DNA from: an uncultured delta proteobacterium
GTDB taxonomy: Bacteria; Desulfobacterota; Desulfobulbia; Desulfobulbales; Desulfocapsaceae
Assembly (NCBI GenBank): GCA_903875445.1
Contig: CAIQWD010000101.1
Span: 1-64,000, forward strand
Direction of reading: 5' to 3'
DNA length: 64,000 bases
A model generated the notes under the pieces. It was not told where the DNA came from and did no database searches. It saw only the letters and a list, made by a program, of their open reading frames with translations. How positions within the stretch are numbered: position 1 is the stretch's first letter; every line of letters starts with the position of its first letter. Position numbers and translations under genes: made by a program. Below, one piece after another: positions 49,851 to 57,969 of this stretch.

Positions 49851-50263
49851 TTTGGCTTTCCCTTGGTTCCGGGTCGGTCGAGTCTTTTTTTACCTTTCCA
49901 TGACTTCAGAGCCTCCATCGACTGCCCCATCCGGTTGCGCCTTCTGAATACCCCAGCCATTGAGGACCTACGCTTGCAGGGCTTATTTGAGGGTGTCCAT
50001 CCCCGTTTCCAGGGCACCAACTTTCGTCCACTACCTGCGCAGATCTCGTCTGCGGTATCATTTGCCAGTCCAACCTTACCGGGATCTGCTCTCCCCATAA
50101 CGGAAACCCGGAAATGAACCGGTACCGTTACGGACAGGAGGGTGAAATACGGATGAAGGTTACATTTCCCTTCCGCCGTGGGCAAACGTTTATTCCGTTT
50201 GCCGATTAACGATTAAAATCATCTTGATGAAAAGCATTTTTCTCCATTGATGTCAATAGAAAA
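49851..50263. other. GC-rich block between the recoded gene and the UCA tRNA
   Basis: About 410 bases. Between 49851 and 50180 the sequence is GC-rich and sharply different from the AT-rich gene beside it. Open stretches exist on both strands (about 90 and 120 codons) but neither resembles a protein I know; the low-complexity basic reading on the minus strand could be part of an intron or mobile element. An 8-bp hairpin GGCAAACG/CGTTTGCC lies at 50181-50203. No clear identity. Confidence 0.4.
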
Positions 50264-50356
50264 TGGAGCGGACAACGGGATTCGAACCCGCAATACGGGG
50301 GTGGCGCCCCCTACCAGGCTCTGAAGGCCTGCGTGTTGCCATTACACTATGTCCGC
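50264..50356 (-). tRNA. UGA-decoding tRNA (anticodon UCA), glycine-like identity; alternative: atypical tRNA-Sec
   Basis: 93 bases with encoded CCA. Acceptor GCGGACA/TGTCCGC (7 bp), D arm GTGT-AATGGCA-ACAC, anticodon arm CAGGC-CTTCAGA-GCCTG with anticodon TCA, a 23-base variable region with a GGGGG/CCCCC stem, and T arm GCGGG-TTCGAAT-CCCGT. G1-C72, C2-G71, U73 and C35 are bacterial tRNA-Gly identity elements, and removing 18 bases of the variable arm leaves a normal tRNA-Gly. Against tRNA-Sec: acceptor is 7 not 8 bp, D stem 4 not 6 bp, discriminator U not G. For tRNA-Sec: UCA anticodon, long variable arm, and selB in the window. Base 37 is G, unusual after A36. No strong promoter is seen upstream. 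Confidence 0.85.
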
Positions 50357-50391: not shown

Positions 50392-50457
50392 TTTTCGTAG
50401 GGTGCACTCTGTGCACCAACAAAACCAGGATGGTGCACAGAGTGCACCCTACGAAAA
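50392..50457. repeat. Perfect 27-bp inverted repeat
   Basis: The arm 50392-50418 (beginning TTTTCGTAGGGTGCAC) is repeated exactly in inverse orientation at 50431-50457, with a 12-base spacer. Each arm itself contains the smaller palindrome GGTGCACTCTGTGCACC. There is no T run on either side, so it is not a typical terminator. It resembles REP/MITE-like elements mobilised by RAYT transposases. It separates the UCA tRNA from the hypothetical gene to the right. Confidence 0.9.
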
Positions 50458-50460
50458 GCG

Positions 50461-51192
50461 TCAATTTGAAAGCTCATCGGAATTATTAGGGGTGTTTTCC
50501 GGTAGATGCTTCCCTTGGCTCAACTCCTCCAGCAAACGTTGATAGGTTGCAATGCGGGTGGGCTTGAGCCGTTCTCCTTCTTCGCTGAGCAGGGTAATCC
50601 ACGCCTTCCCAGGGGGTTTGATGCGCAGAGAGAAGAACACCCTTTCTTGTTCATCGGTCTTAAAGGATTCCTTCAGTTCCGTGCCAAGCCCCCATCTTTT
50701 ATTTAATCGCACCTGAGCCCTCTGGCGCAGTTGCTCGGGTGGCGCGAACCTCGATACCGAACTTTTAGGATACAGACCGAGATAGTGATGATACAGAAAT
50801 CTGTATGTTGCAAGCTCGAAGAGTTGTTTGTTTGGTTCGCCGTGCAGACTGTGCAGCAAGATGCAATAGGCGGTATAAGCCCAGCGCTCCGGCTCGGTCC
50901 CAACAGGAAGAACAAGCCATTGAAAAAGGCCGATTCTTTGGGCGAGATCAAGAACGTAGCCACCTTTTTCGACCAATTGCTCCCACAATTCAAGTTGACG
51001 CCCGTGATCGGTGTGGCCCAGTTTCTCCATCATATCGAAAAATTTCAACAACAAATAGGCTTCGCCGCAACGCCTCGCCACCTCCAGTGGCGGCAGCAGT
51101 TGCCCGCCGGCGCTGGTGGGGAGTCTGATGCGCTTTCTGTCGGCCAGATGGTCAAGCAGTGGAGCGGTTATATGCTCAAGATGACGGGCCAT
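50461..51192 (-). CDS. Hypothetical protein
   Basis: 243 residues, soluble, helix-rich, no motif recognised. Features are a Trp- and Tyr-rich middle (RWAYTAYCILLHSLHG, ATYRFLYHHYLGLYP) and a charged C-terminus. It begins MARHLEHITAPLLDHLADRK. It is separated from neighbours by the inverted repeat and a 120-base gap. Composition is host-like and the length of open frame supports a real gene. Confidence 0.65.
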   Translation of the reverse strand: MARHLEHITAPLLDHLADRKRIRLPTSAGGQLLPPLEVARRCGEAYLLLKFFDMMEKLGHTDHGRQLELWEQLVEKGGYVLDLAQRIGLFQWLVLPVGTEPERWAYTAYCILLHSLHGEPNKQLFELATYRFLYHHYLGLYPKSSVSRFAPPEQLRQRAQVRLNKRWGLGTELKESFKTDEQERVFFSLRIKPPGKAWITLLSEEGERLKPTRIATYQRLLEELSQGKHLPENTPNNSDELSN

Positions 51193-51313
51193 TGCCTTAG
51201 GTGGAGTGTCGTGTTTTTGCGGATCGTCTCTGGCTTAAAGGTTACAATATAGACTCCGGAGCAATTCCCTACCACATAAAAACAATACAATCCGGCAAAG
51301 ATCCAGGCATCCT

Positions 51314-51634
51314 TCAAATCGGCGGAGCGATCGTTACCACAATGCGCATATCGGTGGTCGCTCGAACCCCGTGCGGTTCTCTGATCTCCGAGATGAGGAT
51401 ATTGCCGGTTTTCGCCGGCATTTGCGCTCCATTCGCCCCGAGGAAAAAACCTTCCCCCTCAATCACTTGGATCGACAGTTCGCCGTCAAGATCGTGGGAA
51501 TGGACGGGGAAGGTGACCCCGGCGCGCAGGTTGAAATTGATGATTTTAAAGAACTCGGAATCTTCCACGAGAAAAAAACGTTTCATTGCGCCTTCGGTAA
51601 ATTCCCTGGTTGTATTGAGATCAAGCAGTTTCAT
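51314..51634 (-). CDS. Small cupin-domain protein
   Basis: 106 residues, a single cupin barrel. Motif 1 is FPVHSHDLDGELSIQVIEGE with two metal-binding His, and motif 2 near residues 80-90 (EIREPHGVRA) supplies another. Such small cupins bind a metal and may sense or convert small molecules. A palindrome of FNR/CRP type lies about 120 bases upstream. Confidence 0.82.
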   Translation of the reverse strand: MKLLDLNTTREFTEGAMKRFFLVEDSEFFKIINFNLRAGVTFPVHSHDLDGELSIQVIEGEGFFLGANGAQMPAKTGNILISEIREPHGVRATTDMRIVVTIAPPI

Positions 51635-51993
51635 AGTGCCTCCATCCTGGTTAAGAAAAAAAGAGTCAGGCTTACTTTTGCTTCAAGAAGCGGCGGGAGT
51701 TGGTGGCTCCTAACGCTTCTTTATATATAACAATGCCCTGTTAATGCGCCTTGACCTCAGTCAAGATTCCGGCAATATAGCCAAAATAATTCCGGCAAAT
51801 TATGTTTTCGCCGTAACCTTCCGATAACATTTTCTGGAAAAAAAACTCCATTTGCCGTATTAGTGTTGCTGCAGCAAGGATGGCTTAACCGGTTATTCTT
51901 GATCTCAACCCGCGCCTCCGCCGCTTCTATGACGAATTGGCCTTCTTCATGCGACGGAGGCGTCTTTCTTTTAGCTGAATCAAAGGACACATA
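51635..51993. other. Intergenic region between cupin gene and mpl operon
   Basis: About 360 bases between divergent genes. It holds the TTGAC palindrome at 51751-51764 and otherwise no open frame with support. No strong promoter hexamer pair was identified. Confidence 0.5.
51751..51764. promoter_or_regulatory. CRP/FNR-family operator-like palindrome
   Basis: TTGACCTCAGTCAA is a perfect TTGAC-N4-GTCAA inverted repeat. This form is typical of CRP/FNR-type regulators, and similar sites are proposed for the nitrosative-stress regulator HcpR in sulfate reducers. It lies upstream of the cupin gene on its strand. Confidence 0.5.
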
Positions 51994-52188
51994 ATGGTCG
52001 GACAGGATAAAACATCGCGGGTAGCAGACAGCCCGGAAAAGATGAGCGACGAAACAATTCTGAAAATCGCCAAAGAGATTACGGTCAAATTCATAGAGGT
52101 CGGCAGGATAACCCCAACGACCTTTGCTTCGGCTTTTGCCGGCATCTACAGCACCATCGATAAAGCAGTCCGAGGCAACAAATCATGA
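51994..52188 (+). CDS. Small conserved-looking hypothetical protein
   Basis: 64 residues, start ATG 51994. The sequence DETILKIAKEITVKFIEVGR then ITPTTFASAFAGIYSTID is a helical domain with an amphipathic pattern. It overlaps the mpl start by four bases, so it is translated with mpl. No function is recognised; its close coupling to mpl suggests a regulatory or accessory role. Confidence 0.72.
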   Translation: MVGQDKTSRVADSPEKMSDETILKIAKEITVKFIEVGRITPTTFASAFAGIYSTIDKAVRGNKS

Positions 52189-53630
52189 CGGTTCTTGAGG
52201 CGGACCGCAATTACCCTCCGGCAGAAATCAAACATGTGCACCTGATGGGGATCTGCGGCACCGGCATGGCGGCCCTTGCCGGTATGTTGCAACAATCCGG
52301 CTATACAGTCACCGGCAGCGACAACCATGTTTATCCGCCGATGTCGCTGTTTCTCGATTCTCTTAACATCCCCGTGCACAACGGTTATGCTGGGGGCAAC
52401 CTCAAACCGGCTCCGGATCTGGTGATCGTTGGCAATGTCATCACCCGCAAAAATCCCGAGGCAGAGGCCCTGGCCGAACTGAAAATCCCCTATCTCTCCT
52501 TTCCCCAGGCCCTGGACCATTTTTTCATCCGCTCGCGGACCTCCTTGGTCGTCGCCGGGACCCACGGCAAAACCACAACCTGTTCGTTGCTTGCAACCGC
52601 CCTGTATACAGCTCGACTCGATCCTTCTTTTATGATCGGCGGCATTGTTCGCCAGTTCAACAGCAATTTCCGTCTTGGTGGTGGCAAGTACTTCGTTGCC
52701 GAGGGTGATGAATACGATACCGCCTTCTTCGACAAGGGATCAAAGTTCCTTCACTACCGGCCGCATGTCGCAGTCATCACCTCCTTAGAATTCGATCATG
52801 CCGATATCTTTGCCGATCTGGAGGCGATAAAAAGATCTTTTAAAAAATTCGTAGCGCTCCTGCCGCAAGACGGTCTGTTGATTGCCAATCTCGACGATCC
52901 GAATGTTGCCGAGGTTGCTGCCGAAGCACCATGCGCCGTCCAGGGCTACGGCTTGAATCCCGCAAATGTTTGGGCTCTTGCCGATTTCCGAACCGCAGGG
53001 GAGGCCACCCGTTTTTCGGTCCTGAAAAACGGCAACCCCTGGTCCACCATGACGGTAAAGCTTTCCGGTCGCCACAACTGTCTCAATAGCCTGGCGGTTT
53101 GTGCGGTACTGCATCATCTGGGAGTAAGTCCGGCAACAATCGACAAGGGACTCGGCAGTTTTCAGGGAGTAAAACGGCGACAAGAGGTCCGGGGAATCGA
53201 GAAAGGGATCACCGTGATCGATGATTTTGCCCATCATCCAACGGCGGTGAAAGAGACCCTGGCCGGACTGAAACAGGCCTATCCGAACCGTCGACTCATT
53301 GCCGTTTTTGAACCACGCACCAATTCATCGAGACGGGCGGTATTTCAGAGAGACTATGTGGTCGCCTTCGATGCAGCCGACATTATTCTCTTACGGGAGC
53401 CCCTTCCCCTTGACGGACTGCCGAGCGAAGAACTTTTTTCATCCGTTCGTTTAGCAAAAGATTTGGTGCAGGAGCGGAATCTTGTAGCGGAGGCCCTGGC
53501 CGATACCGACAGCATCCTGGCGAGACTCGGTGCCATCCTTCGTCCTGGGGATGTAGTGGCTATTCTTTCCAACGGGGGTTTTGACAATATTCACGTCCGC
53601 CTGCTGGAACAGATCAAGACGCTTGCCTGA
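52185..53630 (+). CDS. mpl: UDP-N-acetylmuramate:tripeptide ligase Mpl
   Basis: 481 residues. HVHLMGICGTGMAALAGML is the Mur ligase N-terminal loop, VVAGTHGKTTTCSLLATAL the ATP P-loop, and SLEFDHADIF and DDFAHHPTAVKET are Mur ligase signatures. Mpl attaches recycled L-Ala-gamma-D-Glu-mDap to UDP-MurNAc. It matches the AmpG-like permease elsewhere in the window, both being muropeptide recycling steps. MurC is the nearest alternative. Confidence 0.92.
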   Translation: MTVLEADRNYPPAEIKHVHLMGICGTGMAALAGMLQQSGYTVTGSDNHVYPPMSLFLDSLNIPVHNGYAGGNLKPAPDLVIVGNVITRKNPEAEALAELKIPYLSFPQALDHFFIRSRTSLVVAGTHGKTTTCSLLATALYTARLDPSFMIGGIVRQFNSNFRLGGGKYFVAEGDEYDTAFFDKGSKFLHYRPHVAVITSLEFDHADIFADLEAIKRSFKKFVALLPQDGLLIANLDDPNVAEVAAEAPCAVQGYGLNPANVWALADFRTAGEATRFSVLKNGNPWSTMTVKLSGRHNCLNSLAVCAVLHHLGVSPATIDKGLGSFQGVKRRQEVRGIEKGITVIDDFAHHPTAVKETLAGLKQAYPNRRLIAVFEPRTNSSRRAVFQRDYVVAFDAADIILLREPLPLDGLPSEELFSSVRLAKDLVQERNLVAEALADTDSILARLGAILRPGDVVAILSNGGFDNIHVRLLEQIKTLA

Positions 53631-53652
53631 GATGCAATGCGAAAGATGCCTT

Positions 53653-54024
53653 TTATTCAAGAACCGGCTTGATCAGCAAACGCAGGTCTTCGACAAGTTT
53701 TTTGAAATCTGTTAGGCTGCCGCCCTGCCGTCCCTTTTCCTCAATCGTCAGAGCGATCTGCGCGCAATCCGGCAGTCCGAGGTTAAGAAAGGCGCCTTTT
53801 ATGGTATGCCCGACCTTGCCAAGGAGAACCGGATTGTTTTCCGCCAACGCCTTCTCCAGATTGCCCATATGCGTCCCGAGGGTTGCAATGAATGTCGGCA
53901 GTAACATATCAATCTGCTCCAAGGGCAGATTGAACTGTTGAGTGAGATGCAGTCTGATACTCTCAATGCTCTTTTTCTGATTGACACTCTTGCCGATCAT
54001 AGGTTTGTCCACCGATTCATACAT
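53653..54024 (-). CDS. HPt phosphotransfer protein
   Basis: 123 residues. KVGHTIKGAFLNLGLPDCAQ carries the phosphorylatable His of the HPt four-helix bundle, with IALTIEEKG following. It would shuttle phosphate in a multistep phosphorelay. It overlaps the response-regulator gene at its 5' end by eight bases, so the two are co-translated. No histidine kinase is adjacent. Confidence 0.85.
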   Translation of the reverse strand: MYESVDKPMIGKSVNQKKSIESIRLHLTQQFNLPLEQIDMLLPTFIATLGTHMGNLEKALAENNPVLLGKVGHTIKGAFLNLGLPDCAQIALTIEEKGRQGGSLTDFKKLVEDLRLLIKPVLE

Positions 54025-56037: not shown

Positions 56038-57969
56038 CTAACTTCTTTTCCTGAGAATCCTTCTATCGCCGATGCGCATGGTGATTTTTACCCGATCGAG
56101 ATACTCAAGAATAGGTATGGAGAATTTCCGGGTCAACCCGATCAAATCCTTGAAGGCAGGGGCGTCAATCTCGCCGTTTTTCTCCATATATTGCAAAACC
56201 GAAGCAATGAGCGGCTCGATGAGTTCCCTGTCATAATAAAGCGTCTCACTGATTTTGAACAACCGGCCGTCACGCAGCTGCAGATCGAGCACCTCCTTGA
56301 CCAGCTGCGGCGGATACTCGGCAAATTGCTCCATCGTCTCCCTTATGGTCGGCGTCGAGAGACCTTTCGAGCGGTACCACTGGCCGAGATCACTACGGAG
56401 CTTCTCTTCATCGGCCTTCAGGGCAACTTGATGTGCCGCCAATCGGACGACGGATTCCTCCTGCACCACGACCACCTTGCGAAGCAGTTCATTGAGACAG
56501 TAGCCAAACACCTTCGGATCGACTTTCCTGCCAAGGCCGGTGCGCAACTCTTCTTTGGCTATGCCCTGCTGCAAGGGGTTGTTTTTATGGTAGGCAGTTA
56601 GATGTGCCACCAGCATTTCTTTCATTTTTTCGGCAATTGCAAGAGAAACATAGCGCTGGGAAGCCGAATCGACAACCACCATCTTCTTCGTAGATAGAGG
56701 GTCGCTAAGAGCTTTTTTCAGGTGCTTTCCGAACAAGCCGAGGCGAATCGCCAGGTCATCGGCGGTGAGTCCCTGTTCTCCACTCTCGCGAAGGAAAAAG
56801 AGCACTTTGTCCTCTACCGTGCCATCCTTGAGGATGGACAGTATCTTCCGGTTATACTCCCGATCATGTTCCAACAATCGCTTGCGTTTGCGCGGCGAGA
56901 CATTGCCAAGCACCATGCCGCCGCCGATGGTTGCCACCGGCGAATAGCTGCGCACCACATAGCGGTCGCCGGGCCAGACCGAGGCGGTATTTTCGAGAAG
57001 CAATTGGACGGCAGCCTCGTCGCCGGGCTGCAACTCGTCCCGGTCGAGCAGCGACACCCGACCGAGTATCTCCGAGGTACCCAGATGGACACGAATCCTG
57101 GTTCGGTGTTTCAGTGGCTTGGCGTTTGCCGCCAGGTAGAGAAATTGACAATCGAGGATATAGTGTGCCTGCAGGGAGCCCGGCGGGGCGAGGACCATGC
57201 CCCGTTCGATGTCGGCCAGATCAACGCCCTGAAGATTGATTGCCGTCCGGTGTCCGGCTTCAACCTCGGTTACCGCCTGGGAATGCACCTGAATGCCGCG
57301 GATCTTCGCCACCTGTTCCGTCGGATAGATGCGCAGATCCTCACCAACCGCGGTTCGCCCGGAGATCGAGGTGCCGGTAACGACGGCCCCGAATCCCTTC
57401 ATTGCAAAAACCCGGTCGACCGATAGCCTGAACGGCCCGAAAACCTCATGGAAGTCATGCTTTTTGACGATGCCGTCGAGGGTTGCGCGCACCAGATCGA
57501 TCCCTTCGCCGGTAGTGGAAGAGACATGGATGATCGGCGCCCCTTCAAGAAAACTGCCGGCACAAAACTCGGCAATCTCCTCAGTCACCATCTCCAGCCA
57601 TTCGGGTTCCACCAGATCCTTTTTGGTAACTATCACCACCCCCTGCTTCACCCCCATCAGGCGACAGATCTCGAAATGTTCGATGGTCTGGGGCATTATT
57701 CCTTCGTCGGCGGCGACGATAAAGGCAAGGATATCGATGCCGGAGACACCCGACACCATGGTTTTCACAAACTTTTCATGGCCCGGCACATCGACAATGC
57801 CGATGCGGTGGCCGCAGGGCAGATCGAGGTAGGCAAAGCCGAGTTCAATGGTAATGCCGCGCTGAATCTCCTCCTTCAGGCGATCGGTCTCAAAACCTGT
57901 CAGGGCACGGATAAAACTGGTTTTGCCATGGTCAACATGTCCGGCGGTACCAAGAACAATTTCGCGCAT
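56038..57969 (-). CDS. selB: Selenocysteine-specific elongation factor SelB
   Basis: 643 residues. GTP motifs AGHVDHGKTSF, DVPGHEKF and TKKDL are intact, followed by EF-Tu-like domains 2 and 3 and C-terminal winged helices (last about 250 residues) that bind the SECIS hairpin. It delivers Sec-tRNA(Sec) to UGA codons next to SECIS. Its presence means the organism should have selA, selD and a tRNA-Sec somewhere. The start overlaps nothing; the metallo-hydrolase lies upstream by nine bases. Confidence 0.95.
   Translation of the reverse strand: MREIVLGTAGHVDHGKTSFIRALTGFETDRLKEEIQRGITIELGFAYLDLPCGHRIGIVDVPGHEKFVKTMVSGVSGIDILAFIVAADEGIMPQTIEHFEICRLMGVKQGVVIVTKKDLVEPEWLEMVTEEIAEFCAGSFLEGAPIIHVSSTTGEGIDLVRATLDGIVKKHDFHEVFGPFRLSVDRVFAMKGFGAVVTGTSISGRTAVGEDLRIYPTEQVAKIRGIQVHSQAVTEVEAGHRTAINLQGVDLADIERGMVLAPPGSLQAHYILDCQFLYLAANAKPLKHRTRIRVHLGTSEILGRVSLLDRDELQPGDEAAVQLLLENTASVWPGDRYVVRSYSPVATIGGGMVLGNVSPRKRKRLLEHDREYNRKILSILKDGTVEDKVLFFLRESGEQGLTADDLAIRLGLFGKHLKKALSDPLSTKKMVVVDSASQRYVSLAIAEKMKEMLVAHLTAYHKNNPLQQGIAKEELRTGLGRKVDPKVFGYCLNELLRKVVVVQEESVVRLAAHQVALKADEEKLRSDLGQWYRSKGLSTPTIRETMEQFAEYPPQLVKEVLDLQLRDGRLFKISETLYYDRELIEPLIASVLQYMEKNGEIDAPAFKDLIGLTRKFSIPILEYLDRVKITMRIGDRRILRKRS

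Follow-up and report, generated by a model that had tools for sequence, protein, structure and literature searches.

The UCA tRNA gene and its relatives

The window considered here, that is, the whole stretch of 64,000 nucleotides that was analyzed (contig CAIQWD010000101.1 of an uncultured Desulfocapsaceae bacterium), carries on its minus strand a tRNA gene with a long variable arm, the anticodon UCA, and an encoded CCA (50264 to 50356). About 100 bp from it on the same strand lies a gene for a 243-aa protein with a TGA stop (50461 to 51192), hereafter the partner gene, for whose product we predict an RNase III-fold domain (about residues 2 to 140) followed by a dsRNA-binding domain (about residues 152 to 225). 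The tRNA belongs to the Rfam tRNA family RF00005, with 61.2 bits against a gathering threshold of 29 and a complete cloverleaf, and is labeled tRNA-SeC by ARAGORN. Its minimum-energy fold comprises a 7-bp acceptor stem, a 4-bp D stem with a 7-nt loop, a 5-bp anticodon stem, a 5-bp variable-arm hairpin, and a 5-bp T stem, giving a 7/5 acceptor/T architecture with no bulge; the z score of the folding energy is -2.0, and 9 of 200 shuffled sequences fold equally well or better. The anticodon, placed by ARAGORN at position 33 of the gene (50322 to 50324, minus strand), stands in the loop C32-U33-UCA-G37-A38, and the discriminator, from the RF00005 alignment, is U73 (50267, minus strand), with the encoded CCA after it (50266 to 50264). 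The variable region (50292 to 50314, minus strand) is 23 nt long, against about 5 in class I tRNAs, and forms a GGGGG/CCCCC stem with the loop CGCCA. Thus, the complete cloverleaf with a TCA anticodon (50324 to 50322) that a first-pass annotation had read from the sequence is borne out by ARAGORN, RF00005, and the minimum-energy fold, and its count of 18 inserted variable-arm bases was right. A covariance model of our own (R1), trained on 21 sequences that include the tRNA of the window, scores the latter at 99.6 bits.

Several features surround the gene. Directly 3' of the CCA, folding recovers a weak 10-bp hairpin (50240 to 50263, minus strand; z score, -1.9), a possible terminator or processing end of the tRNA. 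A perfect 27-bp inverted repeat with a 12-nt spacer (50392 to 50457) lies between the end of the partner gene and the start of the tRNA; it is not known as a part of the module and may represent a mobile repeat or serve as a terminator. To the right, positions 51313 to 53994 hold a cupin-like open reading frame (ORF) by an mpl-like gene and response-regulator-like ORFs, as named by eye. Some part of the 2-kb cupin-mpl stretch matches all 15 genomes of the genus, the window's own included. The match starts at the cupin (51313) in seven of the eight loci compared, with nothing further left aligning in these seven, and at 51834 in the eighth; the comparison revealed no readable insertion site. 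BLAST with the tRNA did not find it in any of the 14 other genomes of the genus; within the class of the window, the same search recovered it in 4 of 257 genomes, again counting the window's own.

We built a degenerate pattern from the BLAST relatives and scanned it over a collection holding one genome per species. It returned 48 stretches, comprising 27 intact UCA tRNAs by ARAGORN, 1 remnant (L105), and 20 pieces of unrelated DNA, which were dropped; three loci (L076, L077, and L089) duplicate the contigs of L065, L064, and L066, and each such pair entered the counts a single time. The loci come from Bacteroidales, many of them rumen Prevotella-like organisms, Bacteroidota labeled Flexibacter and Draconibacterium, a Lamellibrachia tubeworm endosymbiont with two copies, Gallionella, Desulfocapsa, Desulfobulbaceae, and one contig labeled Akkermansia muciniphila (L104), whose neighboring genes look proteobacterial by eye and which is probably mis-binned. 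The tubeworm symbiont additionally carries a degraded extra UCA tRNA (L085:3193-3279, minus strand), about 1 kb from an intact copy and with a similar flank. The remnant (L105:595-690), for which ARAGORN makes no call, is cut within the T arm and is not accompanied by a partner gene; the 678 nt of this locus up to the cut match L071, a locus with the complete module, at 99.4% identity, and the remnant probably represents a natural loss of the module. In IMG/VR, the only such find of the pattern was a class I tRNA with a UCA anticodon and no long arm, on a viral contig (L115:5122-5193).

The secondary structure is conserved by compensation. Among 21 distinct sequences, that of the window included, 17 of 27 pairs changed on both sides, 97.9% of the cells pair, and none of 500 shuffles reached the covariation score of the family. 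Covariation was seen in four of the five stems, and all six pairs of the variable arm covary, each having changed on both sides among the relatives. The loop of that arm mostly ends in CCA (e.g., CGCCA, CUCCA, and CACCA), with exceptions in L085 and L087. The acceptor end stands out by its constancy: G1-C72, C2-G71, and G3-C70 are invariant in all 21 distinct sequences, each of which also has U73. Every intact member seen has U33, a 7-nt anticodon loop, exactly UCA, G18-G19, and a normal T loop. Because CTTCAG in the anticodon loop, as well as parts of the D arm, was prescribed by the scanning pattern, the presence of UCA and G37 throughout is partly a product of construction for the pattern loci; independent evidence comes only from the BLAST hits and from two genomes (G418 and G474) recovered with a covariance model that does not require UCA, both of which have it.

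The partner gene and its predicted product

An all-against-all comparison of the ORFs around the tRNA yielded two large neighbor families, both adjoining it, such that 25 of 29 loci have a partner gene beside the UCA tRNA, the relative orientation of the two differing among loci. The loci with no intact partner are two with little downstream flank (66 bases in L098 and 274 in L104) and no partner in the upstream sequence analyzed, the remnant L105 (none in 7.3 kb downstream), and L066, where the gene is broken. Of these 25 genes, four (L070, L079, L087, and L091) run off the end of the stretch and two (L081 and L107) are frameshifted. The latter two (L081:1377-2361, plus strand; L107:688-1671, minus strand) are both of the non-Bacteroidales Bacteroidota; the L107 frameshift falls at the run A AAA AAG, which we take to be a classical -1 frameshift site, and sequencing errors in these metagenome-assembled genomes are as likely as -1 frameshifting. 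The partner is divergent from the tRNA in L064, L065, and L111 and follows it in L085, L087, and the Bacteroidota loci. In Bacteroidota, the order is tRNA, in most loci a second tRNA, and the ORF, whose ATG can start 2 nt after U73 (in L074, genome G260, the tRNA ends at 66179 and the protein starts at 66182), suggesting that the tRNA and the mRNA are very likely made as one transcript. Other recurrent ORF clusters near the module reach at most 7 of the 29 loci (7, 5, 5, and then 2).

The two parts also co-occur across genomes. Among the 257 genomes of the window's class, the UCA tRNA and the proteobacterial partner profile were found in the same four, one of which (G172) has a broken gene matching only over residues 2 to 35 of the partner. 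Among 399 genomes of the Bacteroidota family to which the L074 organism, the cultured Prevotella sp. tf2-5, belongs, the tRNA covariance model and the partner profile likewise recovered the same four; two of these (G260 and G262) were known beforehand from the pattern, and the other two (G418 and G474) were new. Hence, the module is rare, with 1 to 2% of the genomes in either sample carrying it, and its parts go together. The partner dN/dS ratio was 0.03 to 0.11 in six of the seven pairs tried, the seventh (window versus L077) being saturated; these sequence ratios indicate that the gene is under purifying selection. As far as comparison of genomes goes, the tRNA is shown to be the RNA component of an accessory module with two parts, a class II UCA tRNA and a linked protein, and the two almost certainly constitute one functional unit. 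The first-pass account of the locus was incomplete in this regard, neither the partner gene, at a distance of about 100 bp, nor the second tRNA of Bacteroidota having been noticed.

This second long-arm tRNA, with the anticodon UCG, G73, and a very similar D arm, stands beside the UCA tRNA in 15 of 20 Bacteroidota loci by ARAGORN (leaving L105 out); its start is seen in a 16th (L098), and it is absent from L074, L078, L079, and L094. It covaries in its own right, with 12 of 26 pairs changed on both sides among 11 sequences, and scores 54 to 76 bits with the UCA covariance model; the ordinary tRNAs of the window's genome reach no more than 52. ARAGORN did not find it in the window, nor was it seen in the proteobacterial loci examined, and the ARAGORN calls on the Rfam tRNA hits of the window's genome include no second long-arm tRNA. 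A putative arginine identity (R1-U72, C2-G71, and G73) was considered for it.

The proteobacterial and Bacteroidota partners show no detectable sequence similarity to each other (hhalign probability, 0.2%), and we infer that they form one family from their predicted fold and common tRNA neighbor. The window protein had no match in Pfam, NCBIfam, PADLOC, or PHROGs at E values up to 1. Its AF2 model, made from six sequences (pLDDT, 80.6; pTM, 0.57), consists of a helical domain followed by an alpha-beta-beta-beta-alpha unit. A Foldseek search with it recovered Aquifex aeolicus RNase III as the best hit (E = 6.8e-6), and all 16 hits at E values up to 0.001 were RNase III or Dicer-type chains, with low whole-length TM-scores (0.32 to 0.49 over these 16, query normalized). 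VIA-align superposed it on Entamoeba RNase III (Z = 11.4; rmsd, 3.2; 138 residues) and, across both domains, on a mouse mitoribosomal chain (Z = 10.7; rmsd, 11.7; 183 residues), Z scores below about 13 being a range in which helical folds can match by arrangement alone.

In the Bacteroidota partner, the Pfam domain PF14622 (Ribonucleas_3_3) was found in 16 of 16 members at E values up to 0.1 (best, 5.9e-7; the first Bacteroidota member falls below the curated cutoff) and the dsRNA-binding domain PF24995 in 14 of 16 at the same limit, while proteobacterial partners gave neither a Pfam RNase III match nor a Pfam dsRNA-binding match. The AF2 model of this family, from 16 sequences, has a pLDDT of 75.9 and a pTM of 0.44, and its best Foldseek hits are a human mitoribosomal chain, presumably mL44, and RNase III (E of about 2e-7); the protein ends in a long Lys/Arg-rich helix. 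A profile search against PDB sequences gave one weak match for the Bacteroidota partner (ribosomal protein L24; E = 0.86) and none for the other. Both partners are thus predicted from their models, which are of moderate confidence, to combine an RNase III fold with a dsRNA-binding domain.

In RNase III, catalysis depends on the NERLEFLGD motif and a second acidic pair. The NERLEFLGD of Escherichia coli RNase III (Rnc; NC_000913.3) corresponds to NSRYVFAGM in six aligned Bacteroidota partners, and the second acidic pair is lost in the same six, one residue falling in a gap and the other aligning with Tyr. With the motif changed and the pair gone, the Bacteroidota partner is very unlikely to be a nuclease. 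The proteobacterial partner, that of the window included, gave no sequence alignment to Rnc (hhalign probability, 0.1%), and a loss of catalysis is probable there.

Acceptor identity and the use of UGA

The bases G1-C72, C2-G71, G3-C70, and U73 are the identity elements of glycyl-tRNA synthetase (GlyRS), which also prefers C36. Among the 45 tRNA sequences of the window's genome, the three acceptor pairs together with U73 are otherwise found only in tRNA-Gly. The ordinary set of tRNA-Gly is present beside it, as three genes with the anticodons GCC, UCC, and CCC, and there is one tRNA-Cys(GCA). The UCA anticodon departs from the NCC of tRNA-Gly in having A36 instead of C36, with C35 kept, and its G37 contrasts with the A37 of each of the ten further A36 tRNAs that were located in the genome. 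Since A36 departs from the C36 favored by GlyRS and G37 is unlike other A36 tRNAs, both glycylation and UGA decoding are put forward here conditionally. On balance, the acceptor end makes charging with glycine the probable outcome.

The first-pass annotation had held that the tRNA has the identity bases of tRNA-Gly and becomes a standard tRNA-Gly once 18 bases are deleted. The first part holds for the acceptor end and discriminator, which are Gly specific in this genome; the second was too strong, as the body, compared after removal of the 18 variable-arm bases with those tRNAs of the genome that are up to 80 nt long, has 52 positions identical to tRNA-Trp(CCA) and 50 each to tRNA-Gly(UCC) and tRNA-Glu(CUC). 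A tryptophan identity, suggested by this slightly closer body, was rejected on the acceptor end and discriminator, since Trp identity needs A1-U72 and G73. The proposal of a new class of opal tRNA-Gly survives in outline, with UCA, a Gly-type acceptor, and U73 kept across phyla beside ordinary tRNA-Gly genes, and is qualified by A36 and G37 as regards charging and decoding. The assertion that a long variable arm is not known in tRNA-Gly needs amendment in view of the nematode nev-tRNA-Gly(CCC), with a variable arm of 15 to 20 nt, which, however, is described in the excerpted account as charged with leucine in vitro (PMC4300185).

UGA is the commonest stop in the 96 kb of the window's genome that were sampled, where, by crude ORF calls, it ends 36 of the 76 ORFs that reach 150 aa; it ends 6 of 20 ORFs in the Desulfo relatives and 25 of 80 in the Bacteroidota loci. 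A tRNA reading UGA therefore cannot be an efficient general suppressor here. Furthermore, the modifying enzyme MiaA needs A36-A37, so that G37 after A36 may make UGA decoding by this tRNA poor.

Proposed functions of the module and its closest known systems

The reading that we prefer, with a probability of roughly 40%, is that the UCA tRNA reads UGA under the control of its partner. The tRNA would undergo normal processing, and the ordinary GlyRS would recognize its G1-C72/C2-G71/G3-C70/U73 end and charge it with glycine. The partner, judging from its linkage and its dsRNA-binding domain, would bind the tRNA, with the long variable arm as the distinguishing feature, and would control its use, such that glycine is inserted at UGA only occasionally or conditionally and UGA stays a normal stop codon. 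The division of labor would be like that of tRNA-Sec with SelB, without a GTPase. That the tRNA is used at UGA on the ribosome at all is suggested by its anticodon, and we put this at somewhat less than an even chance. The UCG tRNA of Bacteroidota does not fit a purely opal function of the module. A more specific version includes it, as a natural recoding apparatus distinct from those for selenocysteine and pyrrolysine, with a pseudo-RNase III protein escorting the class II opal tRNA-Gly, and in Bacteroidota the UCG tRNA, to chosen UGA (and CGA) codons, perhaps through an mRNA hairpin bound by the dsRNA-binding domain, so that glycine would be inserted with no SelB; in this detail, the proposal is unlikely to be right.

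Alternatively, the pair may act outside decoding. A tRNA, perhaps glycylated, would be held by an inactive RNase III-like protein, either as a stable ribonucleoprotein that donates glycine or as a regulatory or structural RNA. This is tentative, and the standing of UGA as the commonest stop, taken with G37, makes it nearly as likely as UGA decoding. UCA pairs with no sense codon, which would keep the tRNA out of normal translation; its G37 is unlike that of other A36 tRNAs, and UGA is fully used as a stop. The partner has an RNA-binding fold with no enzyme signature found, a dead RNase III domain with a dsRNA-binding domain being also the make-up of mL44, a top fold match, and in most Bacteroidota loci another long-arm tRNA, with an anticodon other than UCA, accompanies the first. 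However, the decoding end of the tRNA is well kept (U33, the 7-nt loop, the exact UCA, G18-G19, and the normal T loop), and no transferase or other enzyme that would use the charged tRNA was recognized beside the module, the other ORF clusters being confined to 7 or fewer of 29 loci.

A conflict or defense element, in which the long-arm tRNAs would be decoys or effectors in phage defense or in a toxin-antitoxin-like pair, would explain the patchy spread. The module is sporadic (4 of 257 and 4 of 399 genomes) and reaches distant phyla, the remnants in L105 and L066 suggest loss, and integrase, transposase, or conjugation genes lie near L065, L071, L085, and L064. We nevertheless think this improbable. 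PADLOC-DB (2023 library) assigned no family to five partner proteins, the best PHROGs match had an E value of 0.025, and Pfam scans of 19 neighbor proteins identified no defense gene. The Bacteroidota partner has no match in plasmids, phages, or IMG/VR, and the window protein and tRNA have none in plasmids, the one set searched with them. In addition, the strong purifying selection on the partner is unlike that of a decoy arms race.

The UCA anticodon and the Gly-type acceptor end would also suit a general opal suppressor, one that offsets UGA nonsense mutations or, as in Gracilibacteria, assigns UGA broadly to glycine. Suppressor tRNAs are reported from 0.3% of standard-code bacterial genomes in the excerpted account of PMC13092985, some of which could belong to the present family, and UGA-to-Gly recoding is described for a BD1-5/SN-2 bacterium in that of PMC4032931. 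UGA being the commonest stop in the sample argues against this possibility, as does its leaving the linked partner and the UCG tRNA unexplained, and we regard it as quite improbable.

The first-pass annotation had also offered an unusual tRNA-Sec that evolved away from the standard fold. A diverged tRNA-Sec, or a selC*-type tRNA used by SelB, is suggested by the UCA anticodon, the long variable arm, and the ARAGORN label, and the only selB of the window's genome (4.89 Mb in 117 contigs, 95% complete) above the curated cutoff of TIGR00475 lies at 56038 to 57969 of the window, about 6 kb from the tRNA. The genome has one selA match, and a second selB (selB*) was not found in it, the next best selB match being 32% identical over residues 5 to 356. 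In the excerpted account of PMC5330540, canonical tRNA-Sec has an 8/5 fold with an 8-bp acceptor stem, a 6-bp D stem, and G73; the RF00005 alignment and the fold bear out the earlier remark that the present tRNA differs in its 7-bp acceptor stem, 4-bp D stem, and U73. With the tRNA-Sec model RF01852, it scores 43.2 bits, below the gathering threshold of 47, while a canonical G73 tRNA-Sec on another contig of the same genome scores 72; as an ordinary tRNA-Trp of this genome reaches 47.3 bits, the cutoff alone is not decisive. The separate tRNA-Sec, for which the earlier annotation had advised looking, favors the Gly reading over the Sec one. Only 3 of 27 module genomes have selB above the cutoff (G000, G165, and G233, the window's own among them), and in the two relatives it is on a different contig from the UCA tRNA; no selB above the cutoff was found in the other 24, namely, the 23 reached through pattern loci and G172, which is 55% complete. 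Hence, rather than being the sole UCA tRNA beside selA and selB in its relatives, the tRNA occurs where selB is not found. The selC* tRNA-Cys was likewise rejected, with the 7/5 fold lacking the A51a bulge of the 8/4 form and no second selB having been found in the genome. As far as sequence can do it, the identification with the selenocysteine tRNA is ruled out. A pseudogene or assembly artifact, which might be suspected from the 117 contigs of the assembly and the degraded family copies in L105 and L085:3193-3279, is refuted by the covariation, with stems compensated in many species, and by the co-occurrence with a selected protein gene.

In distant bacteria, a stop-matching tRNA is thus linked with an RNase III-fold protein that is apparently devoid of catalysis. 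To our knowledge, no known system pairs a tRNA with a pseudo-RNase III, and we found no description of a module of a UCA tRNA with an RNase III-fold partner in the open-access full-text literature. Dedicated tRNA-protein pairs are few, namely, tRNA-Sec/SelB, tRNA-Pyl/PylRS, and tmRNA/SmpB, and each opened a field. If the UCA tRNA decodes, it would be a new way of inserting an amino acid at UGA under the standard code, and if it does not, a new kind of tRNA-based ribonucleoprotein. In either case, genes called tRNA-Sec by ARAGORN in genomes with no selB above the cutoff (23 via pattern loci) receive a testable explanation, and with two or three genes the module would be easy to move into a laboratory strain.

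Of the known systems, mL44 and RNase III share with the partner the order of an RNase III fold and then a dsRNA-binding domain. mL44, a dead RNase III with a dsRNA-binding domain, is a non-nuclease and a ribosomal protein, and RNase III is an active nuclease, whereas the partner is linked to one or two unusual tRNA genes and lacks the catalytic acids wherever an alignment is possible. The tRNA-Gly(UCA) of Gracilibacteria/SR1 shares Gly identity and the UCA anticodon. In SR1 it is an ordinary class I tRNA, and these lineages recode UGA genome-wide; in the module, UGA is an ordinary stop and a class II tRNA comes with a partner. The nematode nev-tRNA-Gly(CCC) combines a Gly anticodon with a long variable arm but differs in being eukaryotic, in its CCC anticodon, and in its charging, and the excerpted text of PMC4300185 mentions no partner protein. 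The selC* tRNA-Cys(UCA), which the excerpted account of PMC7609411 places with SelB* and CysRS* in deltaproteobacteria, by selB* (and cysS*), resembles the present tRNA in U73, UCA in some members, the long variable arm, a partly shared bacterial group, and a protein, a SelB copy, with which it is thought to act; its modified 8/4 acceptor/T fold with an A51a bulge differs from the bulge-free 7/5 fold, and the Gly-type G1-C72/C2-G71/G3-C70 end and the partner are different too. The tRNA-Sec/SelB pair shares the UCA anticodon, the long variable arm, and the principle that one UGA-matching tRNA has a protein of its own. The Sec tRNA has an 8/5 fold, a 6-bp D stem, and G73 as excerpted from PMC5330540, against the 7/5 fold, 4-bp D stem, and U73 of the module, and where SelB is a GTPase elongation factor, the partner in the module is a predicted RNase III-fold/dsRNA-binding protein.
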